Origin: Nitrospirota bacterium
GTDB taxonomy: Bacteria; Nitrospirota; Thermodesulfovibrionia; Thermodesulfovibrionales; JdFR-85
Reading direction: 5' to 3'
NCBI GenBank assembly: GCA_035873375.1
Contig: JAYWMQ010000028.1
Coordinates: 1-47,119, forward strand
DNA: 47,119 bases
The notes under the pieces were generated by a model that saw only the letters and a list, made by a program, of their open reading frames with translations, did not search any database and had not been told where the DNA came from. Shown piece by piece: positions 27,396-46,584 of this stretch (position 1 is its first letter; every line of letters starts with the position of its first letter). The translations under genes and the position numbers were made by a program.

Positions 27396-27767
27396 CTACC
27401 CTTTGTCAAGCTGCTGTGTTACCAGCTTAATCAGTTCCTGGGTCTGTATCGGTTTTGGAAGGTAGGCATTGGCGCCTATGTCCATTGCCTTTTTTCTATC
27501 CTCCTCAGTCCCCTCGGTAGTTATTATTATTATCGGTATATTCCTGAATTCCGAATTTCCCCTCACGAGGCTTATCAGTTTCAGTCCGTCCATTACAGGC
27601 ATATTTATATCGGCAAGGATAATGTCAGCCTTCTCTGTTGACAGCTTTTTAAGTGCATCAACGCCGTCGGTGGCTTCTATAACCTTTGACCCGGGGATTC
27701 GGCGCATGGCAAAGCTTATAAGTTGTCTCATTGTTGGTGAATCCTCAACTACCAGGATAGTTGGCAT
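27396..27767 (-). CDS. CheY-like single-domain response regulator, last gene of the che operon
   Basis: The 123 residues are a lone receiver domain with Glu8-Asp9, phosphoacceptor Asp53 (LADINMP), Thr near 82-83 and Lys in PKPIQ. It is the last of the twelve minus-strand chemosensory genes, 10 bases after the GAF gene. It probably receives phosphate from the CheA at 39506-41479. There is no output domain, so it must act by protein binding; the target is not in the window. Confidence 0.92.
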   Translation of the reverse strand: MPTILVVEDSPTMRQLISFAMRRIPGSKVIEATDGVDALKKLSTEKADIILADINMPVMDGLKLISLVRGNSEFRNIPIIIITTEGTEEDRKKAMDIGANAYLPKPIQTQELIKLVTQQLDKG

Positions 27768-27777
27768 GGCCCCTCCT

Positions 27778-28605
27778 CTATTGTGTTGGTTTTCCTTTTA
27801 GAAGTGCAAGGAAGTTCTGGATAGTTGTGAACTCCCTCTCAGACCGGTTGTATAACCGGGATGAAAATATGGCAGTGGCTGCATGGCCTGCCAGAAGATT
27901 GAACAGTTCGTAATCAACATCGGAAAAACCGGTCTTCTGGTCGAGGAAGGAATAGATTGCAATCACACCAATCACATGCTCTTTGATCTTAAGTGGTATG
28001 CATACAATGGGGTTTGCGGGGTCCTCTGATTCCGTGTGAATCGATTCATCTGAAAAGTAGCTTTCCCCTTCCCTGACCACTTCTCCTATAACTCCCTTGT
28101 CTATTGGAATTTTTGCAGTATTGTCCATGTCAATATCTTCTGAGGCAATTGGTTCTAACTCTTCGAGCTTTTTATCAATTAACATTACAGAAAACTTCCT
28201 TGCACCTATCAGATTAATTATGATTTCAAGGACTATCTTCAGTACCTCTTCATAATCGAGTGTTGAGTGAAGTTGGTAACTTGCTACATACATATTGGCG
28301 AGGTTATTGTTTTCTTCTGCTACAAGTATATATTTCTGTGCAAAGTCCCTGTTCTCTGTCTCAGCTTTTCTGAATCTTTCTTTCAGGGACTCTGTCTCAT
28401 CTTCAAGCATTCTGATATGGTTTTCATAATTCCTTATCTTTGCTGCATTGGAATCCTGTGCCTGGGCTTCTTCAAGTTCTGCAATCCTGAACCGGAGATG
28501 TTCGTTCTCCTTAAGGAGGTCTCTGGTAAATTCCTCCCCCTTTTTGAATATCTGTAAAAACTCGTCTGCCTTTTTCAGGATGCCGGGCTCCTTATCCTTA
28601 TCCAT
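27778..28605 (-). CDS. coiled-coil GAF-domain protein
   Basis: The 275 residues have a charged helical N-terminus predicted as coiled coil (about 25-105) and a GAF domain (about 115-262: YEEVLKIVLEIIINLIGARK, PIDKGVIGEVVREGE, PIVCIPLKIKEHVIGVIAIY). There is no membrane segment and no catalytic output domain. It sits between cheB and cheY in the chemosensory operon and could link a small-molecule signal to the array or to the terminal CheY. The ligand is unknown. Confidence 0.8.
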   Translation of the reverse strand: MDKDKEPGILKKADEFLQIFKKGEEFTRDLLKENEHLRFRIAELEEAQAQDSNAAKIRNYENHIRMLEDETESLKERFRKAETENRDFAQKYILVAEENNNLANMYVASYQLHSTLDYEEVLKIVLEIIINLIGARKFSVMLIDKKLEELEPIASEDIDMDNTAKIPIDKGVIGEVVREGESYFSDESIHTESEDPANPIVCIPLKIKEHVIGVIAIYSFLDQKTGFSDVDYELFNLLAGHAATAIFSSRLYNRSEREFTTIQNFLALLKGKPTQ

Positions 28606-28663
28606 CTTGATTTATTTTCCTTTCAACTGACAAAAATCACTTTTTACGTCTGGAGGGAGAGAT

Positions 28664-29722
28664 TTATTTTTCTTTCATTACAACCCTTACAAGTTCTGAG
28701 GAAACCTCACTGAGGGGCAGGATCCTTTGTGCAGCGCCTGCTTTTATAACCTCATTGGGCATGCCAAAGACAACGGCAGTCTCTTCAGACTCGGTAATAG
28801 TATAACCGCCCCGCCTGAAAATTTCCACCATTCCCCTTGTTCCGTCATTTCCCATGCCGGTGAGCACAACGCCAAGAGTCATGTCTTTAAATATCTTTGC
28901 TGCTGATTCCATCATCAGGTTAATAGACGGCACATATCTGTCATTGTCTTCGGCATTTTTAAGCCTCGTATAAATCCTGTCATTCCCGGTCTTCAGCAGT
29001 AGGTGGCATCCCCCCGGGCATATAAGGGCCTTTCCGGGCTCAAGTGGTTCATCGTCCTCTGCCTCTTTAACCCTTATTGCCGAGAGTCTGTTCAGTCTTT
29101 CAGAGAATGAACCGGTGAATCCTCTGGGCATGTGCTGGCTTATAACTATCGGGGCCGGGAAGTTTTCCGGCATTTCTGTCAGGATTAACTGAAGTGCCTG
29201 GGGACCTCCGGTAGAGGCCCCGATGGCAACAATCCTGTCCGGAACTCTATTGGAGAAAACGGGAACCTTTTTCAACGGTCTTTTCCCGGATGTAACTCTC
29301 AGATTTCTGTTGAGCTTGCTCAGAGATGAGGCATCTATGTTCCTTACTTTTGCCAACAGGTCATTTTCAATGTTTTGAAGCTCAAACGATGCCCTTCTGG
29401 TTGGTTTGGCAATGAAGTCCACGGCACCCAGATCCAGTGCCTTGAAGACGGTTTTGCTGTCTGAATGGGAACTTACCATTATTACAGGTGTGGGACATTC
29501 TCTCATAAGCCATCTGAGGAAGCTGAACCCGTCCATCTCCGGCATCTCAAGATCCAAAGTGATTATATCCGGCCTGTAACGGAGAGTTTTACTTATGGCG
29601 TCTACTCCATTCACAGCAACCCCGATCACATCAACCATAGGGGTTTTCAACAGCATGTTTTTAATTGTCTGCCTGCTGAAGGCGGAATCATCGACAACCA
29701 GGACTTTTATCTTTTCCGGCAT
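28664..29722 (-). CDS. cheB: chemotaxis response regulator methylesterase
   Basis: The 352 residues contain a receiver domain (1-120; Asp57 in LDLEMPEMDG) and the CheB methylesterase domain with the triad Ser170 (GASTGG), His197 (SQHMPRG) and Asp293 (GMGNDGTRG). It removes methyl groups from, and deamidates, receptor glutamates and glutamines. Its start overlaps the cheR end by 16 bases. It presumably adapts the two receptors of the same operon. Confidence 0.96.
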   Translation of the reverse strand: MPEKIKVLVVDDSAFSRQTIKNMLLKTPMVDVIGVAVNGVDAISKTLRYRPDIITLDLEMPEMDGFSFLRWLMRECPTPVIMVSSHSDSKTVFKALDLGAVDFIAKPTRRASFELQNIENDLLAKVRNIDASSLSKLNRNLRVTSGKRPLKKVPVFSNRVPDRIVAIGASTGGPQALQLILTEMPENFPAPIVISQHMPRGFTGSFSERLNRLSAIRVKEAEDDEPLEPGKALICPGGCHLLLKTGNDRIYTRLKNAEDNDRYVPSINLMMESAAKIFKDMTLGVVLTGMGNDGTRGMVEIFRRGGYTITESEETAVVFGMPNEVIKAGAAQRILPLSEVSSELVRVVMKEK

Positions 29723-30606
29723 GAGATCATCCTTTGTAATGAAGATTTCTGTGATGAAGATTCCGGTTTCTGGTACACAAGGTCATGTTTGAGATGTTTG
29801 AGGGCAAAAGCGGTTGACATATTTATCAGGGACTCTGCATGTCCCAGGAGCAGGTACCCACCATCAGGCAACACATTATAAAATTCCTCTACCACCTTTT
29901 TCTTTGACGGCATGTCAAAATATATCAGCGCATTCCTGCAAAAGACTACATCCATACTGCCCAAAGAACTCATCTTTACCGCGTCAAACAGGTTGAGATA
30001 ACCGAAATTCAAGAGCCTTTTCACCCTGTCGAGTATTTTGAAGGAACCATCCGGCAGGGGTTCAAAATATTTGTTGATATAATACCTCTCTATGGACCTG
30101 AAGGAGTTCTGTCTGTAAATCCCTCTTCTTGCAGTCTGGAGCACCCTTCTGTTGATATCACTGCCAAGAATTTCGATGTCCCAGCCGTTGAAAAGATTAC
30201 TCTCAAGTATCAGCATGCCTATTGTATATGGCTCCTCACCTGTGGAACAGCCTGCTGACCAGATTCTTATCTTCCTGCTGTTTTTGTTCTTTTGTCTTAA
30301 TTCCGGCAGTATCTCATCGCTGAAAGAGAGAAGCTGATTCTTTTCTCTAAAGAAATATGTTTCATTTACTGTGAGAACGTCCATTATAGCTGCAAGTTCA
30401 TCTTCACGGTTTCTGTCGTAAAGGAGATACCTGTAGTAGTCCCTGTAATTGTTTATATTGTTTGTTCTGAGCCTGGCCGTGAGGCGTTTTTCGAGCAGAT
30501 ATCTGGCACTGTCGTCAAAGTAGATTCCTGAATAGTCCCTGATGAGATCTCTAAGGAGTCTGAAAGCATCGTCGGAGAGGGCAAAGGCCTCATGTTTTTC
30601 AAACAC
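29707..30606 (-). CDS. cheR: chemotaxis protein methyltransferase
   Basis: The 299 residues have the helical CheR_N domain (about 15-75) and the SAM-binding Rossmann domain with WSAGCSTGEEPYTIGM and DVVFCRNALIYFD. It methylates receptor glutamates. No C-terminal pentapeptide tether is seen on the receptors, so it must act without it. It overlaps the HEAT gene by 8 bases upstream and cheB by 16 bases downstream. Confidence 0.95.
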   Translation of the reverse strand: MFEKHEAFALSDDAFRLLRDLIRDYSGIYFDDSARYLLEKRLTARLRTNNINNYRDYYRYLLYDRNREDELAAIMDVLTVNETYFFREKNQLLSFSDEILPELRQKNKNSRKIRIWSAGCSTGEEPYTIGMLILESNLFNGWDIEILGSDINRRVLQTARRGIYRQNSFRSIERYYINKYFEPLPDGSFKILDRVKRLLNFGYLNLFDAVKMSSLGSMDVVFCRNALIYFDMPSKKKVVEEFYNVLPDGGYLLLGHAESLINMSTAFALKHLKHDLVYQKPESSSQKSSLQRMISCRKR

Positions 30607-32584
30607 CTAAGGCCACCTCGATAGCCTTTCTGACAGTAGGGTCGTCTTCAATATCATATATCCCTTCAAGACAGACTCTTGATTGTTGAGTGCCTGTTTT
30701 TGACAGTACCTGTACGGCAGCAAGTCTTGTCGCCCAGTCCTTACTGAAGAGATGTGGTTCAACCTCGTTTTCCACGTCAGGAAATGATGAAAGTGACAGG
30801 ATTGCCGTTCTTCGAATCTCTCTATCATCTGACAGGAGTAATTTTATCAGGGACTCTCTGGCCTCTTTTCTGTCATTGAAGAGCGAAATTGACTCAATAG
30901 CCTGTGTTACAACAAAACCATTAGCATCTTTTAACAACCCTGTCAGCGTTTTCAGAGATAAATCATTTTTGTATCTGGAGAGTGCGCGGGCTGCCGAGGC
31001 CCTGACGATTTCGTCAGGGTCATTTGTCATAACGATGATGGAGTTCAGGGTATCCATGTCACCAGGCAAAGAAAGATTTTCTGTGGCAATAGCACGTATC
31101 TCTGCTGACTCATCAGTTAATGCCGTACGGAGGTATCTGTTTGCATGTTCGCCTCCGATCATGGATATCGCCTTTACAGCAGCCTTTCTCACTTCTTCAG
31201 ACTCGTCCTTTACTGCAAAACCAAGTGCTTCAATTGACTCCCCGGCATGGATGTTTCCGAGAATAAGGGCGGTATTTTTCCTTGAGAGTATATTCGGAGA
31301 ATTTAGCTTATCGATCAGCTCGTTAATGGAAAGGAACTTTTTCAGTTCGGTCAGTGCAGCAACTGCAGCTTCCTGTACGTCCGGATAGGGATGTATGAGG
31401 AGAGGGAAAATTTCTTCTACAGCCCTCCTGTCTCCTATCCAGCCCAAACCCCTTGCAGCATAAGCAACCACATGGCCGTCGTGTTCCATCAGGAGCCATA
31501 AGAGTATGTCGTAAAACGCAGGGTTTTGAAGTTCGGAAATGACCTCAACTATTAATCTGCTCCTTTCAGGGATTTCCGTCTTTACGATGGGGATAAGGTA
31601 ATCAGGGTCTTCCTTGCCGATAAAGACCAGTGAACGTTTAACCGTATCCCTGAGAAACTCGTCTTTGGAAAGTTCAAGGAGCGGTCTTATTGCACGATGG
31701 TCACATAGAAGACCGAGAAGGACAATTGCCGGGCCTTTGACATCCTTGTTTTTATGGTTGATGTGTCTTACCAGTATGTCAAAGGCATCATCACCAAGTA
31801 TGTTGTGAAGTTGTTCGGATATGAACTCCTCAGATGCTCCGGCCTGGTAGAATTTCTCAATGGTCCTCAGTGTTTCTTCCACAATGGAGCGTCTCTGGTC
31901 ATGGAGAAAGGGGATGATTTCCTTCAGTGTTTCGGGTTCCGAGAACTCCGAGAGTGACTTAAGGGCCGGTTCGGTAAGAAGGCTGTTTTTGAGGACCTTC
32001 AAGAGATAAGGGATGACGGTTCTGTCCCCTATCTGCCCAAGGGCATCCACTGCGGGGTAAGCTGTCCAGACCTCTCCGGTCTCTATGATCTCCACAAGGG
32101 AGCCTATAACAGAGGCTTCCTTGAGCCTTCCAAGGCACTCAACGGCTGATGCCCTTACATTGACATCCTCATCCTTTATTGCCCTGAGCAGCAGGGGCAG
32201 GACCTCCTTTCCACCGATAAATCCCAGGACATCAATGATAAACTTTCTCACGTCGTGATTATCAGACTCAAAGGCATCGATGAGTTGAGGAACCGCTTTT
32301 TTGCCGAGCGTTATAAGGGCCTCTATCGCGGTATTGCGTGCCCCCGCATTATCTTCAACATAAAGAAGACCGATCAGGTCTTTTATATAACTATCCGGGC
32401 TGAAGCCCTCAAGCAGGACATTGAGTGCGGTTTTCCTTATTCTCCAGCTTTCATCCTTAAAAGAATCAAGAACGTAATTCAGACCCTCAGGCCTGTTCTT
32501 CATGGAGAGGATATTCTGCCGCCTTGATTCTATCTCTTTATTTTTTGTCTTTTTCGGGTCTTCTCTTGACACTTTCCCTTCCAT
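30599..32584 (-). CDS. HEAT-repeat scaffold protein in the che operon
   Basis: The 661 residues are built almost entirely of roughly 30-residue HEAT/PBS-lyase-like repeats, for example DVRKFIIDVLGFIGGKEVLP, NVRASAVECLGRLKEASVI, RAVEEIFPLLIHPYPDVQEA. GAGGTGA six bases before the ATG supports the 32584 start, which lies inside the end of cheW (47-base overlap). No enzyme motif is visible. The inferred role is a protein-binding scaffold for CheR, CheB or the signalling array. Confidence 0.85.
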   Translation of the reverse strand: MEGKVSREDPKKTKNKEIESRRQNILSMKNRPEGLNYVLDSFKDESWRIRKTALNVLLEGFSPDSYIKDLIGLLYVEDNAGARNTAIEALITLGKKAVPQLIDAFESDNHDVRKFIIDVLGFIGGKEVLPLLLRAIKDEDVNVRASAVECLGRLKEASVIGSLVEIIETGEVWTAYPAVDALGQIGDRTVIPYLLKVLKNSLLTEPALKSLSEFSEPETLKEIIPFLHDQRRSIVEETLRTIEKFYQAGASEEFISEQLHNILGDDAFDILVRHINHKNKDVKGPAIVLLGLLCDHRAIRPLLELSKDEFLRDTVKRSLVFIGKEDPDYLIPIVKTEIPERSRLIVEVISELQNPAFYDILLWLLMEHDGHVVAYAARGLGWIGDRRAVEEIFPLLIHPYPDVQEAAVAALTELKKFLSINELIDKLNSPNILSRKNTALILGNIHAGESIEALGFAVKDESEEVRKAAVKAISMIGGEHANRYLRTALTDESAEIRAIATENLSLPGDMDTLNSIIVMTNDPDEIVRASAARALSRYKNDLSLKTLTGLLKDANGFVVTQAIESISLFNDRKEARESLIKLLLSDDREIRRTAILSLSSFPDVENEVEPHLFSKDWATRLAAVQVLSKTGTQQSRVCLEGIYDIEDDPTVRKAIEVALGV

Positions 32585-33080
32585 GAGGGCTCACCTCTTC
32601 ATTTTTCAGTTTTTTCCTGGATCTCTTCAACTTGATTTTTTCCTCGCTTGTGAGTATACGTTCAATATCGAGAATTATTATTACCTTGTTGCTGTTGGAA
32701 GTTTTTGCCCCAACATAGGCATCTTTCTGTCCGAGTCCTTTTATAAACTCCGCCCTGAACCCTTTAAAGAGTTTAGGGGGCTTTGATATCTTTTCTTCGG
32801 ATATTTCCACTATATCCGTCACGTTATCCACAAGCAGACCAACCTTGTCCTCTTCAAGCCTGATAAGGATGACCCTCTGTTTGCCGGTCTTCTCCGTTAT
32901 GCCAAACCTGATCCTCAGGTCAATGACAGGGATAATCTCTCCCCTTACGGTTATCACTCCGGAGACGAAATCCGGAAGTTCCGGTATTTTGCACAACTCC
33001 TGAGTTTTGAGTATCTCAACAACACCCTGAATGTCCATGCCGAAGTTCTCATCAGCAATATCAAAGATAGTGTATCTCAT
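32538..33080 (-). CDS. cheW: CheW-like coupling protein with basic tail
   Basis: The 180 residues form a CheW domain (1-145: DIQGVVEILKTQELCKIPE, VRGEIIPVIDLR, GLLVDNVTDIVE) plus a Lys/Arg-rich tail of about 35 residues. It joins CheA to receptors. It starts inside the end of the receptor gene (ATGA overlap of 4 bases), suggesting it serves that receptor. It is the second CheW of the operon. GKTS-like region YVGAKTSNSNKVI is a loop, not a nucleotide site. Confidence 0.92.
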   Translation of the reverse strand: MRYTIFDIADENFGMDIQGVVEILKTQELCKIPELPDFVSGVITVRGEIIPVIDLRIRFGITEKTGKQRVILIRLEEDKVGLLVDNVTDIVEISEEKISKPPKLFKGFRAEFIKGLGQKDAYVGAKTSNSNKVIIILDIERILTSEEKIKLKRSRKKLKNEEVSPHGRESVKRRPEKDKK

Positions 33081-35071
33081 TGAGCACTGGTCCTGAAGAG
33101 TTCCACTTCTTTTCTCAATACCTCCACTTCGTTATGCAGGGATGTAATGAAGAGCGAGACCTCTTTAACATTCCTTGTTGTTTCCTTCCCTATCACCATA
33201 ACCTCTTCCATTGCCTCTATGATCCTCCTGTTGACTTTCTGCTGTTCAGCCGAGGCCCTTGCTATCTCAGCAGTCTTCTCGTTTGCGAGTTCGATATTAT
33301 CTGTGATAAATCGGGTACTCTCTGCCTGTTCATCCGTGGCATTTCTGGCAGCCTCCATTGACTCCTTGATTGAACTTATGCTTTCAAGGAGAGAGGCCGT
33401 GCCCCTTTCCTGTTGCTCTGTTGTCCTGTTGACATCCAGAATCATATTCTTGATATGCTCGATGGCATTGACGATAAGCTCAAGCCCCTTTGCCTGCTGC
33501 GCGGCGGCACGCTCAATGCTTGCTGCCATTTGTGTGGATTTTTGCGAGGCCTGCAGTATCTCTCTCAGGGTATCACCGGTCTTGAGTACCACATGGTTTC
33601 CCTCTTCAACCATCCTGACGGTCTCCATCGTACTCTCCATGGCCTCTCTAATCTCCTTCTGCAGGGTTGAGACAATGGTTGCAATGTCACGTGTGGATGC
33701 TGCGGTTTTTTCCGAGAGGTTCCTCATTTCATCGGCAACTATGGAAAAACTCTTTCCATGCTCCCCGGCCTGAACAGCGAGTATCTGTGCATTCAGGCTG
33801 AGCATGCCTGTCTGTTCAGTCACATCCTTGATAACCGACAGTATCTTTTCAATATCCCTTGACCTTCTTCCGAGCCTTTCAATTGTCTCTGTGAGGGAGT
33901 TGACGGAATTTTCAATCCTTTCCATCCCCTCAATTGCATCTACAACGGATAACATGCCCTTTTCTGCAATAATATTTGTTGTCCGGTTGCTCAGTTCAGC
34001 GGATTCCTTGATGGTTTTTTCTACTTCCTTGACAGAGGCATTGATTTCCTCAATAGAGTTTGAAGCCTGGTGTACGGCAGAAGTAGCATTATCCGCCATT
34101 GATGCTACTTCCTGTGCCGACTGTGTCAGTCCTGCCACTGTGGAGTATGAATTACTGATATTTCTATTGAGATTGCCTATATTGGATGCTATCTCCTCTG
34201 ATGAGGCCCTCATCTCAAGGAGCGCAGATACATTGTCATTTGACAATGAGAGGAGTTTTTCCGTATTGGCTATAGTCTGTTCCTGGGACCCGGAGGCATT
34301 TTTAACAGCCTTTGATATCTCCTCCAGGAACCTCTGTCGATTACTTATCCCGTTTATTACATTCTTGAATGTCAGGTTTAACTGGCTTATTGCCGCAGAG
34401 ACATTGCCTGTGATACTTTTTAGTTTCCTCACCGTGACCAGGAGCCGTTCAATGAGGAAGTCAAACCCCTTTGCTATGATTCCGATCTCATTGTCTTCTA
34501 CAATCTCTATCTTCTGCGTGAGGTCTCCAAGTGTGACCTTTTCTATGTTTGCGCTTAAACTCTCTATCTGTGTGCCGATATGCCTTTGAAAAAAGAGGTA
34601 GATCAGAAAGGTCAGGACAAGAAAGACGATACCCTGAAGTATCAGATTGGTGAGGATGAAAGCCATATCAGGTTTTACCTTTTTATAATGTACCGTTACT
34701 GTTCCGACCTTTCTATCCCCTTCCATTATTGGTGTCTCCATGCTTTGTGAAGCCCTCTCTTCAGGTGACCGAGCTTTTCTGAGCAGAAGCTTGCTGTTTT
34801 TGGTTACCTCTATTTCGACTATGTTTTCATCCTCGATAGCCCCGTCTGTTATCTGTTCAAGATATGTATAATCCTGACTTGTATTAACAGCGGCTGCAGC
34901 GTTTTCAATCAGGGTGGATACCATGTATATTCTTTTTCTTAAATCATTCTCGATTGTGATATTATGCCGGGAAAAAGACCAGTACCAGATAAAGGACTGT
35001 CCTATAAGGAGTATTATAAGGACCCTGAGTATGAATGTTGTGGAAAGTTTCTTTTTTATCTTCATGCGCAT
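33077..35071 (-). CDS. methyl-accepting chemotaxis protein with degenerate hairpin tip
   Basis: The 664 residues have membrane helices at about 12-33 and 138-161 around a periplasmic domain of about 105 residues, then HAMP (about 162-215) and a long coiled-coil signalling domain. The tip (about 420-445) reads QTGMLSLNAQILAVQAGEHG, whereas the usual form is [18 protein letters not shown]; several contacts for CheA and CheW are changed. The sister receptor at 35103-37955 keeps a more regular tip. It lies 31 bases after that receptor. Confidence 0.9.
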   Translation of the reverse strand: MRMKIKKKLSTTFILRVLIILLIGQSFIWYWSFSRHNITIENDLRKRIYMVSTLIENAAAAVNTSQDYTYLEQITDGAIEDENIVEIEVTKNSKLLLRKARSPEERASQSMETPIMEGDRKVGTVTVHYKKVKPDMAFILTNLILQGIVFLVLTFLIYLFFQRHIGTQIESLSANIEKVTLGDLTQKIEIVEDNEIGIIAKGFDFLIERLLVTVRKLKSITGNVSAAISQLNLTFKNVINGISNRQRFLEEISKAVKNASGSQEQTIANTEKLLSLSNDNVSALLEMRASSEEIASNIGNLNRNISNSYSTVAGLTQSAQEVASMADNATSAVHQASNSIEEINASVKEVEKTIKESAELSNRTTNIIAEKGMLSVVDAIEGMERIENSVNSLTETIERLGRRSRDIEKILSVIKDVTEQTGMLSLNAQILAVQAGEHGKSFSIVADEMRNLSEKTAASTRDIATIVSTLQKEIREAMESTMETVRMVEEGNHVVLKTGDTLREILQASQKSTQMAASIERAAAQQAKGLELIVNAIEHIKNMILDVNRTTEQQERGTASLLESISSIKESMEAARNATDEQAESTRFITDNIELANEKTAEIARASAEQQKVNRRIIEAMEEVMVIGKETTRNVKEVSLFITSLHNEVEVLRKEVELFRTSAQ

Positions 35072-35102
35072 TCCTTGAAAGAATTTCTGTCTAAAAGGTA
35101 TC

Positions 35103-37955
35103 TCATATCATCTTCAGTCTCGACATGATATCCCTTATCCAGGCATAGTCGTCACCATGTGCCTCAACAAAACCTGTATAGTGTTCATCAATGGATTTCA
35201 GTACCGTTATCCCTTCAGTGCCGGTATCCTTCAGCGCGAGGATGGCGGATTTTATCTCTTCTGCACTTTCCTCGGGTATATCCCTGGTAATACATATATT
35301 GAACTCGGGTATTTCTTCAGAGAATTTTATAAATTTCAATCCCTGTTCCTTATATTTATCCGCAGTTGATTCCATTACTCCTCCAGCGTCATACCCACCT
35401 GAAAGCACTGCCTTTGCCACATCATCGTGATGGCCGAGATAGTTATAGAAGAGGAGGTCGTCAAGGTCTATGCCGGCTTCAAGTAACATATACCGTGGCA
35501 CTATATGAGATGAGGTAGACTCCTGATCGCCAAAGGCAAATGAGCAGTCCCTCAGGTCCTCAATGCTTGATACAGGGCTGTCACTCCTTGCAATAATGAC
35601 CGAGTGGTGAAAGGGCTTGCCGTCCCTCAGGGCCTTGGCAATTACCCTTACGCCATAATCACGATTGGCCTTTATGTATGTTGAGGGGGTCATATAGCAG
35701 AGTTGTGTTACACCACTGCCGATCTCCTTTATTGCACTGTTGAAATCCACGCCCACCTTTAATTCCACCTTCTTGCCGAGTTTCCTGCCCAGGTACTCAG
35801 CGAGGGGGGTAAACTTTCTATACATATCCGCCGGAGATTCCAGGGGTATTACACCGAGCCTGAGGGTCTTTTCAGGCCTTGCGGATACAGAGAATCTGAA
35901 ACTTTCCATTTCCGTCACAATAAGTTCGGAGTCTTTAACGAGGGACCTGAGAGAATTGTTGACCTTGAATGAGAGGTTCCTGTTTTTAACCGGAAGGTCT
36001 GATATATTTTCTGCAGATCTCTTTATCTGTTCAGACTCTGTTTTCTGTTCATTTATGGCGCTGGCTATCTGCTGACTCTTTTCTGAAACCACATCAGTGC
36101 TCTTTATTATCTGTTTGCTCTGCAGGGATTGCTCCTCTGTAGCGGTTTTCACCTGCACGGCTATATCCTTAACCTTCTCCGCGGCATTCGTTATAAGGTT
36201 CATTCCCCTTGATTGCTCGGATGTTGCCTTTGCAATCTGACTTGCCATATTACGGACATTTTCCATTGACCTTGATACAAACCGTGCTGCCTCAGCCTGC
36301 TCCGAAGTTGAGTGTTCAATGGCCGTAGACATCTCTGAAGAAAGCTGTGCGCTCTCCACAATCTTTTTCAGTACCCCTGAGGCCTCCTGTGAGAGCCCGA
36401 GTCCCTCATTGACCGATTCAAGGCCGTGCTTCATTGCATCCACTGCGTCCCTGACCTCCTGCTGCACCGTCTGTATCAGTGATGAAATCTCCTGGGTAGA
36501 GAAGGATGTCCTTTCTGCGAGGTCTTTTATTTCATCGGCAACAACAGAAAACCCCTTGCCGTGTTCTCCTGCCTGGGCTGCCAAAATAGCCGCATTCAGT
36601 GCAAGGAGATTCGTCTGGTCGGTAACATCGTCGATTACTGTGAGTATCTTTCCTATCTCTTCCGACCTCCCGCCGAGCTTCTTTATATACTCTGCGGTCT
36701 TTTCAACAGAGGTCTTTATCCGTTCCATCCCCTCGATAGTCTTCCCGATGGAAGTCATTCCGTAAGTGGATGCCTCGTTCATGACCCGTTCACTCAATTT
36801 GGCGGATTCCTTGGTATTCCCTTCGACTTCCCTGATAGAGGCTGTAATCTCTTCAATTGCTGAAAGGGTGTCCTCAGCAGACCTGAAGAGATCATCAGCG
36901 CTCAGCGCAACCTCTTTTATGGAAGATGAGAGTTCCTCAATGGAAGCTGATGTAGATTCGGTTGATTCAAAGAGTTCGTTGCTGTTGTTGGCGATCTGGG
37001 AGGTGCTGGCAGCCATCTCTTCAACCGCAGCGGTGGTCTGTTCTGAAGATGCCGCAAGGTCTTCCGTATTTGCTGCAATCTCGGTGATTGCAGCGTTCAG
37101 TTCCTCTATGGAAGAGGAGATATTCGAAATAGCCTCGGCTTCGAGTTGAGTGCCTTCAAGAATATCCCTCGACTCCGATTCAACCTCTGAGGAGACCTTG
37201 GAGATTCTTTTAGTGACGTCCTTTACCCTCTGGAGGATTGAAGATATGGATTGAAGCGCATCCTGCAGCGCAGTGCTCGCCTGTCCGATTTCATCGGTAG
37301 AATCTATATCGACATTGAAGGTCAGGTCTCCATCCGAGAGGAGCCTGGCAGCCTTTTCTATCTTCTTTATCGGGTTAAGCACTATCTTTCTCAGAAGCAG
37401 CCACATAATAAAAGAGAGTATGGCTATGGCAAACAAGGAAGCGATGATAGTAACAGTTGCCATCTCTGCAATCTTTTCTTTCTCACTTTCAAGTGTCATG
37501 GAGACCTTGACCGCCCCGATGAAAGGGCTGTCAATCTTGTGGCATTTTTGGCATGCAGATCTTTTTATCAGTGGCTTGTAAACGGTCATTAGCCCGTTTT
37601 CGATCAGGGCGTAAGGGGAGAGGTTTGTCCTGAACCTTTCGACATAGCGCTTCTCTGTTGCAGGTGCTTTTCTGTCAAATGCTACCCGGCCTTCATGATT
37701 CAGGATAGTGATGGCCTCTACGCCTTTAAGTGCCTTGAGGTCGCCTGCCATGGCTTTGGTGATTTCAGCCCGTCCTTCAATCATGGTCCTTTCAATGCTT
37801 GTGCTGATTACCGTTGCGGTTTCAAACATTTTTTCCTGTGCGGTTTCGTAGATGTTTTTCTTCTGAAGATAAATAACCGTAGTTACGGCAAAGATAGCGC
37901 CCAAAATAATGACTGATATAACTACTCCAAGGACCTTTTTTTCAAGTTTTCCCAT
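35103..37955 (-). CDS. heme-motif receptor with cytoplasmic PhnD-like domain (MCP fusion)
   Basis: The 950 residues, in order: membrane helix 8-30; a periplasmic sensor with the c-type heme motif CQKCH at 135-139; membrane helix about 167-188; HAMP about 189-241; a methyl-accepting signalling domain about 250-690 with tip [20 protein letters not shown] at 447-466; and, after RPEK, a PhnD/phosphonate-type periplasmic-binding fold at 696-950 ([52 protein letters not shown]). With only two membrane helices the PhnD-like part must be cytoplasmic. AAGGAG precedes the ATG. Usual receptors end soon after the coiled coil; this has two candidate input domains. Confidence 0.93.
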
Positions 37956-38017
37956 TCTCTTCTCCTTTGAGAGGCTTAACTATAAGGTATAAAGGTATAA
38001 TTCAGTATTATAATAAC

Positions 38018-38713
38018 CTATTGATTACCTTGAGGATGCGCCTTTTTTGTTATAGTTAACCCAAGCGCCTCCTCAGTCCTGAGTATTGTCATAAAGATTC
38101 CATCGGAGATAATAATACCTTCAATAAATCTTGCCTCTTCTTCTGTGATATGTGGAGGGGCCGGGTTGAGGTCTGATTCGGGCATCCGCCTGACCCCGAC
38201 AATCCTGTCTGCCATAACACCGATAGGCCCCCTTGGGCCTCTGACAATAACTATCTTGGCCCTTTGAGTGACCCTGTTCCGGTTTCTGTCCGTATCCGGG
38301 ATTTTTTCAGTATCAGTGATATTCAGTCTTGCCTTCAGGTCCACAATGGGGACCATCTTTCCCCGTAATGAACTTAGCCCCTTTACATAAGACGGAGTTC
38401 CGGGGACGGGTGTTATAGCGGGTGGATGGGCTATCTCCTGCACATCCCTCATATGGAAGGCATATGTTTCCGGTCCAAGCTGAAAACAGAGCAGATCAAT
38501 CCTTACCTCCGGTGTCTCAACCCCGATTGATTCCTCAGGAGAGGCTTTCTCCCCTGATTCTGCCGGCCCTTCCTTGATAACAGGTTTGGTATTTTCCGTC
38601 TTCTCTTCAGTGGTTTTCAACGTCTCAGTTTCCGTATCAGAAGGTTTGTGAGTAGATGGCTTTGCTGTCTTTCCGGCCTGTGCAGCCTTTTTCCTGATTT
38701 TAGCTATATCCAT
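38018..38713 (-). CDS. cheW: CheW-like coupling protein with disordered N-terminus
   Basis: The 231 residues start with about 70 low-complexity residues rich in Lys, Thr, Glu and Pro, then a CheW domain (about 71-225: LLCFQLGPETYAFHMRDVQE, GLSSLRGKMVPIVDLKARLN, IGVMADRIVGVRRMP). It couples the array. Its start overlaps the ATPase stop by one base. The long flexible N-terminus could bind the ATPase or reach neighbouring receptors (inference). Confidence 0.92.
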   Translation of the reverse strand: MDIAKIRKKAAQAGKTAKPSTHKPSDTETETLKTTEEKTENTKPVIKEGPAESGEKASPEESIGVETPEVRIDLLCFQLGPETYAFHMRDVQEIAHPPAITPVPGTPSYVKGLSSLRGKMVPIVDLKARLNITDTEKIPDTDRNRNRVTQRAKIVIVRGPRGPIGVMADRIVGVRRMPESDLNPAPPHITEEEARFIEGIIISDGIFMTILRTEEALGLTITKKAHPQGNQ

Positions 38714-39513
38714 CAGAGTCCGAGTTCCTCCACTGCATCCATGACATTGGTGTTGTCAATGAGTTGAGAGTCTTTTGAGAAGGCATCAAGCAGTGCCGAG
38801 GTTGCAATACTGTTTATAAGTCTCGGTATTCCCCCGGAATATATGTGGATAAGGCCTATCGCTTCATCAGTAAAGAGTCTGGTTTCCCTGCCTGATACCT
38901 TCAACCTGTGGTTGATGTATTCCGAGACCTCTTCTTCAGACAGGGGCGGCAGGTGATAGAATATCCCGATCCTCTGCCTAAGTGGGGCATATGCCCTGTG
39001 TTTCAACCGTCTGAGAATATCCGGTTGAGCCACAAAAATCAGGCTTATAAGGTTGGTATCGTCGAGCTGGAAATTGGTAAGGAGCCTTATTTCTTCAAAT
39101 GTCTCCTTTTTAGGTATAAGCTGTGCCTCATCAATAATAATCACAGGTGTAATGCCGTTTTCATGGTCCTCATAGACCTTCCGGTAAATAGCATCCAGGA
39201 GGTCATCCTTATGATTAAAAGGAGGTTTTACCTCCATGCGGCGCGCGATTGTTCTTAAAAACTGGTTTGCCGTCAGCCTTGGATTCACGATAAGTATTAT
39301 CCTGTATTGGTCATTCAAAGAGTCCATTAAAGCCCTTGTGAGCGTGGTCTTTCCGCATCCTATCTCACCTGTAAATAATATGGTTTCCTTTTCTTCCACA
39401 ACGTACTGAAGTCTTGCAAAGGCCTCCTCATGTGCCTTGCTGAGATAGAGAAACCGGGGATCCGGGGTCTTGTTGAAAGGTCTTTCACTCAACCCGTAAA
39501 AGTCTTTATACAT
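38713..39513 (-). CDS. ExeA/GspA-like AAA ATPase in the che operon
   Basis: The 266 residues begin with MYKDFYGLSERPFNKTPDPR, the standard opening of ExeA/GspA-like (AAA_22) ATPases. Walker A is GEIGCGKTT (49-57) and Walker B VIIIDEA (124-130), with a sensor/arginine region LRQRIGIF near 178-185. There is no membrane helix or peptidoglycan-binding domain, unlike full GspA. It sits between cheA and cheW with overlaps on both sides (8 bases and 1 base), so it belongs to the operon. Its job in signalling, perhaps positioning or assembly, is not known. Confidence 0.9.
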   Translation of the reverse strand: MYKDFYGLSERPFNKTPDPRFLYLSKAHEEAFARLQYVVEEKETILFTGEIGCGKTTLTRALMDSLNDQYRIILIVNPRLTANQFLRTIARRMEVKPPFNHKDDLLDAIYRKVYEDHENGITPVIIIDEAQLIPKKETFEEIRLLTNFQLDDTNLISLIFVAQPDILRRLKHRAYAPLRQRIGIFYHLPPLSEEEVSEYINHRLKVSGRETRLFTDEAIGLIHIYSGGIPRLINSIATSALLDAFSKDSQLIDNTNVMDAVEELGL

Positions 39514-41479
39514 GTACCAGTCCCTTGTGCCTGAGCAGGATTTCCTCTGTCAAGGTCTCAACGTCTATGACAAGTATGACATTGTGCCTGCCGATTTCCG
39601 TAACACCTGCAACCCCCTTTAATCCCTCGAAATATCCACCGAGGGACTTTATAACAATCTCCTGCCCACCAATAAGTTCGTCTACAAGGAGTCCAACCCT
39701 CCGTTCTTCGTATCCGGAAACCACAATATATCGGCTCTCATGATGGCCGCTTTCACGGGTCTGAGAACCGATTTCGAAAAAATCCGATACCGGCATAACA
39801 GGCAGCAACTCTCCCCTCAGGTTATACACTTTTTTGCCTTCTATGCTCTGAAGGGCATCCCTGTCGACTATCAGGGTCTCGGAGATCGATGACAGTGGTA
39901 AGGCAAAGGTATTGATGCCGACTCTTATCAGCAGTGACTTGATAATGGCAAGGGTGATGGGGATGGAGAGAGAGAATCGCGTATAAATGTCTTTTTCCGT
40001 CCTTACATCCACAAACCCGCCTATCGAAGATATCCGGTTTTTAACCACATCCATGCCGACTCCTCTTCCCGACACCTCTGTTACCTTCTCTTTTGTGCTG
40101 AATCCTGCCCTGAAGATGAAGCCTATCAATTCTGTATCGTCTATCTCTGTTCCGGCAGTAATAATCCCTTTTTCCAGGGCTTTTTCCCGTATCACTTCCG
40201 TGTCAATTCCTCTGCCGTCGTCCTCTATTTCTACTATTACGTTATTGCCACGTTGAAAAGCCTTAACCCTGATGGTTCCCCTTTCAGGCTTGCCCCTTCT
40301 CTTTCGTTCTTCAGGGCTCTCTATCCCGTGGTCTATGGCATTTCTGACAATGTGCATCAAGGGGTCCACGATCTCTTCGGCGATGAATTTATCCAGCTCG
40401 GTCTCCTCTCCAAAGACCGTCAGATTAACGGGTTTTCCTATCTCCTGAGAGTATCGTTTTACTATCTGTGCAAGGCGTGAAAATATCTGACCGATAGGCA
40501 CCATACGAATCTCCAGTACCTGCTGCTGTAATTCCGACAGTCTCCTTTCAAGACTCTGGTATGCCCTGTGCATATCAAAGACAAGCTCTGAGTGCCCGTA
40601 GATTCCTGCAAGTTCGCCTTCTATGCGTTTAATGGCCCCCTTGGTAAGCGTGAGTTCTCCAATTGTGTTGAGTATCCCGTCAAGTTTTTCTATATCCACT
40701 CTTACAGTGGTTGAAATGCTTTTTAGTGAAGGCTGTAGTTTCCGGGCTGTTGTCTTTTTAGGCTTGCTGCCCGTAATCTGTTCGGGCGCAATGCCAATGG
40801 CGGTTTTCAGGGAATCAGGGTCTTTGTCGGATGCAAAGAGAAGTTTGAATCCAAGAGAGTCTGGCGGCATGTTTTCAGAGGTGGGGAGGATTGATATCAA
40901 TTCCCCTTGCTTTTTGATCTTTTCTGTAAGTTCAGCAAGTGCTTTGTCAAAGTCTTCAAGGGAGAAGACCGCATTTATGGTGAATATTGCCCTCTTCTTT
41001 TTTATATTTGCTCTCAGTCTCTGTTCTTCATAATTGGAGAGTACACTGATAATTGCCTCATCAATAACGCCGCTTAATGACTCCTGCTTTTGCCGGCTTG
41101 AGGTCTTCCGACCGAATACCTTTATATCTTCAAGATAAGGTGTTACATCAAAATCATTCCCCTGCTCTGCCTTTTTAAGCAATTCTCTCAGGATGTCAAT
41201 GTTTTTGAAAAGGAATCTGATAACATCATCGCTGACCTCGATATTGCCAAGCCTCAGACTGTCAAGGATCTCCTCAATGGCATGGCTCAGATCTTTTAGT
41301 CCCTCAAGCCCGAAGAGGCCTGAAATCCCCTTTAGTGTATGGATGGATCGAAAGAGGGCATTAACAGTGTCGGGATTAGCCCCTGTCTCAGCGGATTCCT
41401 GAAGTTCGAGGAGATGTTCCTCGGCCTCTCCAAGTAACTCTTCCGCCTCTGAGATAAACTCCTTTTTTGATGAATTCAT
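39506..41479 (-). CDS. cheA: chemotaxis sensor histidine kinase
   Basis: The 657 residues: P1/Hpt domain with phosphoacceptor His47 (RSIHTLKG); a P2-like alpha/beta domain (about 160-232); P3 dimerisation (about 258-325); P4 ATPase with N box HIVRNAIDHGIE (376-387), G1 DDGRGID (420-426) and G2 GRGVGMDVV (471-479); and the P5 CheW-like domain (about 510-655). It autophosphorylates under receptor control and feeds the two CheY proteins and CheB. It overlaps the upstream cheY by 4 bases. Confidence 0.97.
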   Translation of the reverse strand: MNSSKKEFISEAEELLGEAEEHLLELQESAETGANPDTVNALFRSIHTLKGISGLFGLEGLKDLSHAIEEILDSLRLGNIEVSDDVIRFLFKNIDILRELLKKAEQGNDFDVTPYLEDIKVFGRKTSSRQKQESLSGVIDEAIISVLSNYEEQRLRANIKKKRAIFTINAVFSLEDFDKALAELTEKIKKQGELISILPTSENMPPDSLGFKLLFASDKDPDSLKTAIGIAPEQITGSKPKKTTARKLQPSLKSISTTVRVDIEKLDGILNTIGELTLTKGAIKRIEGELAGIYGHSELVFDMHRAYQSLERRLSELQQQVLEIRMVPIGQIFSRLAQIVKRYSQEIGKPVNLTVFGEETELDKFIAEEIVDPLMHIVRNAIDHGIESPEERKRRGKPERGTIRVKAFQRGNNVIVEIEDDGRGIDTEVIREKALEKGIITAGTEIDDTELIGFIFRAGFSTKEKVTEVSGRGVGMDVVKNRISSIGGFVDVRTEKDIYTRFSLSIPITLAIIKSLLIRVGINTFALPLSSISETLIVDRDALQSIEGKKVYNLRGELLPVMPVSDFFEIGSQTRESGHHESRYIVVSGYEERRVGLLVDELIGGQEIVIKSLGGYFEGLKGVAGVTEIGRHNVILVIDVETLTEEILLRHKGLVHV

Positions 41480-41847
41480 GAACTTAAAACCAACCGAATC
41501 TTCTCCTGAAAGTCTTCAGGCCTGAAGGGTTTTGTAATATATGCCTCTGCCCCAAGTGCCAATCCCCTCTTTTTATCCTCCTCCGACCTTTCAGTACTCA
41601 CTATGATCATTGGTATGTCTTTATATTGCGGTGTGGTTTTTACAAAGTTAATCAACTCAATGCCGTTTATATCAGGCATATTTATATCTGTTATTATCAG
41701 ACTGAAACCTTCGGTAGGGAGTATTTTGAGGGCCTCAAAGCCTGTGCCAGCCTCAAAGACCTGATACTCTTCTCCAAGGTCCTCAATAATTGTTCTCATC
41801 ATGGAGCGGGTTGATTCGGAGTCTTCTACCACAAGTATGTTTTTCAC
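41476..41847 (-). CDS. CheY-like response regulator, first gene of the che operon
   Basis: The 123-residue lone receiver domain has Glu8-Asp9 (VVEDSES), Asp54 (ITDINMP) and Lys in ITKPFRP. It opens the chemosensory operon; the start is a GTG preceded by GGAGGTGA. It overlaps cheA by 4 bases. It is about as similar in style to the terminal CheY as two paralogues usually are; which one is the output and which a phosphate sink cannot be told. Confidence 0.92.
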   Translation of the reverse strand: MKNILVVEDSESTRSMMRTIIEDLGEEYQVFEAGTGFEALKILPTEGFSLIITDINMPDINGIELINFVKTTPQYKDIPMIIVSTERSEEDKKRGLALGAEAYITKPFRPEDFQEKIRLVLSS

Positions 41848-45153: not shown

Positions 45154-45579
45154 TTATCTCCTTGATTTTGCCGGATGAGACCATGGGGCCTGTTTTGCCC
45201 TTTTTTCAGATTCTGCTTTCGAAGGCTGGCTTCTTTTAAAGACATCCATCCCGACAAGAGTGGATGCCCAGTCATGCTCAGGTTCGGTTTCCTGGGTAAG
45301 GAGCCATGTTGCCGTCAATATTTCCTGGCCGTCAATCATTTGCAGTTGTCCGGACCAGGCGGTTACAGAGTGTGAATTTCCACTTTTATTAACCCAGGCA
45401 ACAGTAAATCCGACAGCCTGACTCTGACCGTAAGGTTCTGTGTCTGTAGTGCCTGCCAGGGTATAGATGCCTTGTGCATCTCCGACAGCAGTCTGGTATG
45501 TTCCCGACACAGAATTTCCATCTACCTGTAGATTCATTTCTGAACCCAACTCGTTATACCAGGTGCCTTCCAATCCCAT
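45154..45579 (-). CDS. avidin/streptavidin-family biotin-binding protein
   Basis: The 141 residues align along their length with core streptavidin. Biotin contacts conserved: Asn9 and Ser13 (streptavidin 23, 27), Tyr28 (43), Thr30 for Ser45, Asp34 for Asn49, Trp62 (79), Ser71 (88), Thr73 (90), Trp75 (92), Trp92 (108), Leu94 (110), Trp104 (120) and Asp112 (128). Motifs are GTWYNELGS, GTYQTAVGDA, FTVAWVNKSGNSHSVTAWSG, TATWLLT and STLVGMDVF. Retained Trp104 favours a tetramer like streptavidin rather than a rhizavidin-type dimer. GGAGGG precedes the ATG by about six bases. There is no signal peptide, so as written it is cytoplasmic. A basic tail of 27 residues ends APWSHPAKSRR. It is not part of any biotin-synthesis cluster. 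Confidence 0.93.
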   Translation of the reverse strand: MGLEGTWYNELGSEMNLQVDGNSVSGTYQTAVGDAQGIYTLAGTTDTEPYGQSQAVGFTVAWVNKSGNSHSVTAWSGQLQMIDGQEILTATWLLTQETEPEHDWASTLVGMDVFKRSQPSKAESEKRAKQAPWSHPAKSRR

Positions 45580-45690
45580 TGATTCCCTCCATTTTTGATA
45601 TGAATTTTCAGGTTTTAAGGTGGCTTCTTATCATTTCCCCCATTTTTTAGATCGAGAATGATATTGTAGAATCCAGGAACTACGTACAGC

Positions 45691-45720: not shown

Positions 45721-46116
45721 CATCCCTTCTATAATATCCCATAAGTAAAGAATAATCAACTGGTCAAGGAGTAATTGGGCTTGTATTTATACATTGCCTA
45801 TCAGTTATCGTTGGTTCCCAAGCCGCCCCTTTCTACCAATAAATTCTCGTTAATCCCCTCGTTCCGGACACCCTCCTTGGCAATTATCCAATATTATACG
45901 TATTACGTATTTCCTGATATTAGAGCATAAATACGAAAAACGATAATTTTTTCTTTATAAAATAACAATCAGAGAGTGCATGTGTTTCTAAAATGTGATA
46001 TAGTATAGGGTAGTTTGGGGGAGAAATAAGTAGTTCGTATATTAATTGTTATCAAAAAACTATATTGAGGATATGCTAAAATATACGCATGAAAGCTGAA
46101 AGAACGGGAGGATTTG
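45721..46116. other. AT-rich non-coding region upstream of hicBA, with a TACGTA palindrome
   Basis: No ORF of protein-like quality is seen. It is clearly more AT-rich than the rest of the window. ATACGTA-T-TACGTAT at 45896-45910 is a perfect 15-bp inverted repeat with a single central base. Near hicB, TATATT (46061-46066 region) and AATATA form a loose inverted pair that could be a HicB operator. GCTTAAC at 45706-45712 just outside the region recalls an attC R-box but has no partner. Confidence 0.4.
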
Positions 46117-46344
46117 ATGATAAAGCAATATAAAATAATAGTAGAAAAACATCCTGATGGCTACGTTGCCTATCCATTGGGACTGAGAGGGATAGTGGTA
46201 GGACAAGGTGAGACCTACGAAGAAGCACTTTCGGATGTAAAATCAGCAATAAAATTTCATATTGAAACATTCGGAGAAGAAGTTCTTGAAGTTGATTCAC
46301 CAGTTCTTGAAGCTTTTGTAGCAGAGGCTGGAGTAGAAGCATAA
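46117..46344 (+). CDS. hicB: HicB-family antitoxin
   Basis: The start at the ATG 46117 follows GGGAGG (46106-46111) by five bases. The 75 residues show the HicB fold: KIIVEKHPDGYVAYPLGL, GQGETYEEALSDVKSAI and a short acidic C-terminus. There is no added ribbon-helix-helix or HTH domain, so DNA binding, if any, is by the fold itself or absent. The TAA stop is directly followed by the hicA ATG. The antitoxin-first order is less usual than hicA first but is common in one large subgroup. Confidence 0.9.
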   Translation: MIKQYKIIVEKHPDGYVAYPLGLRGIVVGQGETYEEALSDVKSAIKFHIETFGEEVLEVDSPVLEAFVAEAGVEA

Positions 46345-46584
46345 ATGACAAAATTCCCAGTTGATGCTCCCAAACGGAGGGTAATAAAGGCATTAGAAAT
46401 TTTAGGGTTTATGATTGTAAGGGAAAGAGAACATATTTCAATGGTTAGAGAAAATCCAGAGGGGACAAAAACTCCTTTAACAATGCCCAATCATCCATAC
46501 ATAAAAGCTTCGACATTAAGAACCATATGCACACAAGCAAGGATATCAAGGAAAGAATTTTTAGATGCATACAACAAGACATGA
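46345..46584 (+). CDS. hicA: HicA-family mRNA interferase toxin
   Basis: The 79 residues have the dsRBD-like HicA fold: KRRVIKALEILGFMIVRERE, the active-site His in REREHISMV, MPNHPYIKASTLRTICTQA and RKEFLDAYN at the end. It cuts mRNA at the ribosome or free in the cytoplasm when not bound by HicB. It abuts hicB and ends about seven bases before an attC-like site, the position typical of a gene in an integron cassette. Confidence 0.9.
   Translation: MTKFPVDAPKRRVIKALEILGFMIVREREHISMVRENPEGTKTPLTMPNHPYIKASTLRTICTQARISRKEFLDAYNKT

Follow-up and report, generated by a model that had tools for sequence, protein, structure and literature searches.

A leaderless streptavidin-type avidin in a Nitrospirota bacterium, with a conserved His-Pro tail that may act as its own pocket ligand

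In full-length streptavidin (PDB 2BC3), the biotin site is filled by the chain's own tail, residues 150-153 (Asn-Gly-Asn-Pro; PMC3344845), and the tail of streptavidin C1 likewise enters its own biotin site (PMC7924230). The tail of bradavidin raises the melting point of the protein and weakens its binding of large biotinylated ligands, which led the authors to speculate about a protection of the host cell's machinery (PMC3344845). Peptides that were selected against streptavidin in the laboratory have HP at their core: HPQ peptides bond through their His and Gln with Ser88 and Thr90 of streptavidin (PMC5608804). A 2021 survey of 118 species reported avidins in Actinobacteria, Proteobacteria, Bacteroidetes and one Synergistetes, with no Nitrospirota among them, and about half of the surveyed bacterial avidins were predicted to have signal peptides (PMC8033661).

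Here, we describe an avidin gene in a window of 47,119 nucleotides, by which we mean the whole stretch of DNA that was analysed. Its features are as follows.

45154..45579, minus strand: avidin gene, 141 aa; PF01382 match, streptavidin-like from end to end, predicted eight-strand barrel
45232..45579, minus strand: beta-barrel core, residues 1-116, net acidic (3 K/R, 14 D/E), all biotin contacts kept
45157..45231, minus strand: C-terminal tail, residues 117-141, net basic (7 K/R, 2 D/E); predicted helix 121-130, then APWSHPAKSRR
45172..45183, minus strand: WSHP, residues 133-136; P136 aligns with streptavidin Pro153, and the codons are identical in the sister species
45580..45592, minus strand: strong ribosome-binding site, ATGGAGGGAATCA before the ATG; the same in L017
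43856..45055, minus strand: next gene downstream, encoding a PorV/FadL-like outer-membrane protein; the genus keeps it whether or not the avidin is present

Our data confirmed the predicted 141-residue, streptavidin-like reading frame at exactly these coordinates, with a match to the Pfam avidin profile (PF01382) at an E value of 1.3e-26 and 93.7 bits against a curated cut-off of 24. In a phmmer search of the PDB, the best 60 matches were all streptavidins, with E values of about 1e-25 against ordinary streptavidin chains over residues 2-130. The pocket residues named in the original prediction all stand at the right positions with respect to streptavidin. The full set of correspondences is N9 (N23 in streptavidin), S13 (S27), Y28 (Y43), T30 (S45), V32 (V47), D34 (N49), W62 (W79), S71 (S88), T73 (T90), W75 (W92), W92 (W108), L94 (L110), W104 (W120) and D112 (D128). 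Each biotin-contact residue is kept or conservatively replaced, and T30 and D34 recur in relatives. AlphaFold, run on a 14-row alignment, predicts an eight-strand barrel (pLDDT 77) with Z scores of 14 to 15.5 to streptavidin structures; the models are single chains, and W104 is the counterpart of the tryptophan that a neighbour supplies in the streptavidin tetramer. Judged by its sequence, the window protein is a streptavidin-type avidin with a full pocket; biotin binding and the oligomeric state are inferences. The host genome (G000; 99.3% complete, 2.67 Mb), of which the window is contig 28, contains no second avidin.

The features that had been taken to make this protein a natural variant do not set it apart. 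Asp at the Asn49 position is also found in Flavivirga jejuensis and in a secreted streptavidin of Amycolatopsis sacchari, all members of the leaderless set of relatives described below have Thr in the place of Ser45, and the GRYD motif of streptavidin, in whose place the window protein has GTTD, is not known to contact biotin. In this comparison of sequences, the Asp-for-Asn49 and Thr-for-Ser45 replacements are ordinary variation and no mark of a special protein. What is truly unusual is the absence of a leader together with a His-Pro tail, neither of which had been pointed out.

The host is a member of the Nitrospirota, as had been supposed: a publicly named Nitrospirota genome of the same genus (G397; JAADGU010000152.1, Nitrospirota bacterium isolate M_MetaBat.13) carries an avidin 95% identical to that of the window. 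The further claim that avidins are new for this group of organisms holds with respect to the literature, as the phylum is missing from the 2021 survey and our search of open-licence papers found no Nitrospirota avidin, but the window genome is not alone, being one of six avidin carriers among 396 sampled Nitrospirota genomes. These avidins are of two kinds, a streptavidin type, present in the window genome, G397 and a genome of the same order (G182; JAJRYC010000063.1, Nitrospirae bacterium), and other types, seen in four genomes that belong to other families. A second Nitrospirota avidin type stands, in two genera, head to head with a gene that looks by eye phosphoribosyltransferase-like (L012 10113-11165 and L013 13698-14793). 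With three carriers among 176 genomes, the avidin gene is rare and dispensable in the order.

The two species' intact avidin genes differ with a dN/dS of 0.095, which points to purifying selection on the intact gene. In another genome of the genus (G396; L058 3986-5297), a deletion of ~420 bases has left an intact ribosome-binding site and 13 avidin codons, which are fused in frame to the leader of the downstream outer-membrane protein. Its rarity and its deletion in this sister species show that the avidin is not essential. A phylogenetic tree placed the window avidin with streptavidins and tamavidin and apart from the Rhizobium and other Nitrospirota avidins (branch 100/97); it gave no resolved branching order inside the streptavidin-type clade. 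The nearest relative outside the genus comes from Bacteroidota, and, in AU tests, neither a common origin for the Nitrospirota copies (p 0.087) nor the grouping of every HP-tailed protein in one clade (p 0.186) was shown or rejected. A leaderless, HP-tailed protein encoded on Streptomyces plasmids is sister to the secreted streptavidins and tamavidin 2 (95/94), and this placement would be compatible with a descent of the secreted streptavidins from a leaderless, HP-tailed ancestor. With regard to the way in which the gene was acquired, the viral contigs and phage records that we scanned contained no relative, which makes a phage origin unlikely, and no recent transfer is visible by composition, the GC content of the avidin gene (0.484) being like that of its neighbours. 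Avidins are present on plasmids of Streptomyces and Burkholderia; that of a Burkholderia glumae plasmid (L062 1-3294) has a signal-peptide-like N terminus and lies between polyketide synthase and transporter genes, as in a biosynthetic cluster.

The avidin reading frame starts with an ATG, with GGAGGGAATCA just 5' of it, that by eye stands immediately before strand 1, leaving no N-terminal signal peptide. The open frame upstream comprises only 16 codons, is hydrophilic and contains no start; further 5', we found neither an in-frame start nor a hydrophobic leader, and the upstream frame of the sister species (YEATLKPENTYQKWRES) is likewise devoid of both. Compared by eye with the secreted streptavidins, the window avidin thus has no counterpart of their signal peptide. 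A missing leader is not new in itself, given the proportion of predicted signal peptides among surveyed bacterial avidins, but it implies that the avidin and the biotin enzymes of the host should occur together in the cytoplasm. A search for biotin synthesis genes recovered bioB, bioW and bioA in the host genome, so the host probably makes its own biotin. This poses a sharp question, namely, how a leaderless avidin in a biotin-making cell avoids starving the cell's own carboxylases.

Scanning 85,000 species genomes and a plasmid collection, we recovered leaderless relatives, at 43 to 57% identity, from Flavivirga (Bacteroidota), a second Nitrospirota, a Rickettsiales MAG, a Thermoanaerobaculia MAG (Acidobacteriota) and two Streptomyces plasmids, which encode the same protein. 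H135-P136 is invariant in all seven aligned leaderless relatives (six lineages), within the motif [SA]HP, and in the six lineages it sits 22 to 23 residues past the same Phe. Across these lineages, mean identity is 100% for HP, 17% for the linker (residues 120-133), 50% for the core and 8% for the residues after HP; the residue directly following HP is Ala in the window protein and Lys, Val, Asp or Met elsewhere. On a crude star tree, chance alone would retain HP with a probability of about 1.5e-4 if the rate of residues 117-134 is assumed, but of 1.6e-2 if that of the core is. At the corresponding position, secreted streptavidins carry [N/D/L]P; all 14 rows of the alignment share the Pro, which lines up with Pro153. 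The complete WSHP is restricted to the window protein (P0001) and its sister; as the Trp is not conserved elsewhere, the identity of WSHP with Strep-tag II may be due to chance, which does not apply to HP. Not every leaderless relative has the tail, since L046, an Acidobacteriota protein on a long branch, ends in RQRR and lacks HP, and samples of Flavobacteriaceae, Cyanobacteriota, Acidobacteriota and Rickettsiales yielded no HP-tailed member beyond the known ones. A damaged avidin copy in a cyanobacterial MAG of the Pseudanabaenales also ends in MPAHPV; here (L032 2262-2480), the first ~40 avidin residues are in frame with ARKKRMPAHPV, owing to an internal deletion or an assembly error.

Structural models of the window protein and of the Flavivirga homologue, both as single chains, follow 2BC3 and 7CQ0 through their folded-back tails in structural alignments. 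The Flavivirga model aligns over residues 1-138 with 15-155 of 2BC3 and with 48-187 of 7CQ0, and in the window protein the tail register relative to 2BC3 is off, with residue 136 on 150. Since the tail has a pLDDT of about 50 or less in both models (in the window protein, after residue 130), and AlphaFold may have learnt 2BC3 and 7CQ0, this alignment lends weak support to a tail in the pocket. The counterparts of streptavidin Ser88 and Thr90, to which HPQ peptides bond, are retained in the window protein as S71 and T73. A His-Pro tail at the place where the tail of streptavidin plugs its pocket, in a protein without an export signal, suggests a putative self-plugging biotin binder inside the cell.

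We propose that the window protein is a leaderless, cytoplasmic, streptavidin-type biotin binder that supplies a weak ligand for its own pocket, admits free biotin and is shielded from the cell's biotinylated proteins, a reading that we regard as having about an even chance of being right. In this scenario, the barrel would bind free biotin via the streptavidin set of contacts, while the short helix after the last strand would lead the basic tail back over the acidic barrel. The conserved His-Pro would then sit in the biotin site, comparable to Gly151-Asn152-Pro153 of streptavidin and to the HPQ core of Strep-tag peptides. Free biotin would displace the tail, which bulky biotinylated proteins, such as the cell's own carboxyl carrier protein, would do poorly or not at all; the cell could in this way keep or sequester free biotin while its own carboxylases stay functional. 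The idea of such a shielding is modelled on the report that the bradavidin tail weakens the binding of large biotinylated ligands (PMC3344845). Speaking against a gating tail, HP is not followed by the Gln that HPQ peptides use, and only six lineages are known. A conserved self-ligand would be a concrete and cheaply testable answer to the question of self-starvation.

The neighbourhood of the gene bears on its possible role. In the Rickettsiales MAG, the avidin gene ends 79 bases from bioB, which is followed by bioC, bioD and bioA, and in G182 a single gene of opposite orientation separates it from bioA, at a distance of 1.1 kb; thus, an avidin stands beside biotin synthesis genes in two of the six lineages, the window genome not being one of them. 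An operon partnership with the downstream PorV/FadL-like gene is unlikely, as relatives retain that gene without the avidin. Near the avidin, the window contains a probable HicB-HicA toxin-antitoxin pair (46114-46584, plus strand; HicA, PF07927, E 1.8e-9; HicB-like reading frame without a Pfam match), which is AT-rich (GC 0.36-0.38 versus 0.46 for the window), suggesting a recent arrival. A long chemotaxis cluster (CheA, CheW-like, CheB-like, CheR-like, receptors and a HEAT-repeat protein) occupies 27396-41847 of the window. Elsewhere, a cas9 flanked by an apparent CRISPR array stands 426 bases from the avidin of Flavivirga jejuensis (L018 1288-6420), probably by coincidence, and two TAA codons interrupt a weak additional avidin match (E 5e-4) in the Rickettsiales MAG (G403; L045), perhaps a dead copy.

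Alternatively, the protein may be an ordinary avidin serving as a weapon, one that lacks a leader, accumulates in the cell and is freed on lysis, whereupon it would deprive competitors or grazers of biotin; the only effect of the tail would be to stabilize the empty protein, just as that of bradavidin raises its melting point (PMC3344845). The patchy distribution in the phylum and the order, the loss of the gene in the sister species and the plasmid-borne avidins of Streptomyces and Burkholderia all agree with such a role, and an antibiotic function has been proposed for streptavidin (PMC8033661). However, we recognised no gene for lysis or secretion next to the avidin in the window, and in two of six lineages the avidin gene lies beside biotin synthesis genes; we consider a weapon rather unlikely. 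It is also conceivable that the HP tail, rather than being a pocket ligand, serves as a signal by which another partner binds or sorts the protein, or that common descent has preserved it as a remnant, consistent with the low confidence at which the models place it and with the free variation of the residues after HP. Against this stand the invariance of HP next to a linker that has largely diverged, with the crude chance estimates given above, and the aligned Pro of streptavidin, which is known to lie in the pocket; this explanation seems to us improbable. That the window protein is a degenerate avidin that has lost biotin binding, as the 13-codon remnant in G396 might suggest, seems very remote, given the pocket contacts, all kept or conservatively replaced, and the low dN/dS of the intact pair.

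If the self-ligand reading is extended beyond the window, the HP-tailed proteins might constitute a cross-phylum subfamily of cytoplasmic avidins, in which the tail, a natural counterpart of the Strep-tag, bars biotinylated proteins and admits free biotin in the service of biotin homeostasis, the Asn-Pro tail of streptavidin being a relic of it. We put this forward tentatively and consider it doubtful in its full extent. If true, it would provide a function for the streptavidin tail, which is usually removed in the laboratory form, and a natural peptide-pocket pair beside the engineered Strep-tag.

Among the known systems, the window avidin is most readily compared with streptavidin (Streptomyces avidinii, P22629; 2BC3), with which it shares 44% core identity, all aromatic and most polar contacts, a nearly equal tail spacing and a Pro at the Pro153 position; it differs in lacking a signal peptide and the RYD motif, in having HP for NP in the tail, and in its Thr for Ser45 and Asp for Asn49. 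Streptavidin C1 (Streptomyces cinnamonensis, 7CQ0) similarly has a C-terminal helix followed by a tail peptide, which in C1 enters the same-chain pocket, and the models align with it over the tail, although its own tail, VTSANPPAS, has no HP (PMC7924230). Bradavidin offers a possible analogy, as its C-terminal intrinsic ligand, the Brad-tag, is reported to disfavour large biotinylated ligands, but the Brad-tag (SEKLSNTK) enters the neighbouring subunit, and bradavidin belongs to a different avidin clade. Tamavidin 2 (Pleurotus, 2ZSC) is likewise of the streptavidin type, and its deposited chain begins shortly before strand 1, whereas its tail (HAQLHCRAPRLK) is without HP. Finally, the artificial Strep-tag II (WSHPQFEK), which binds the streptavidin pocket, has the same first four residues, WSHP, as the window tail; unlike the natural tail, in which Ala follows HP and only HP is conserved, it was selected in the laboratory and has Gln at that position.
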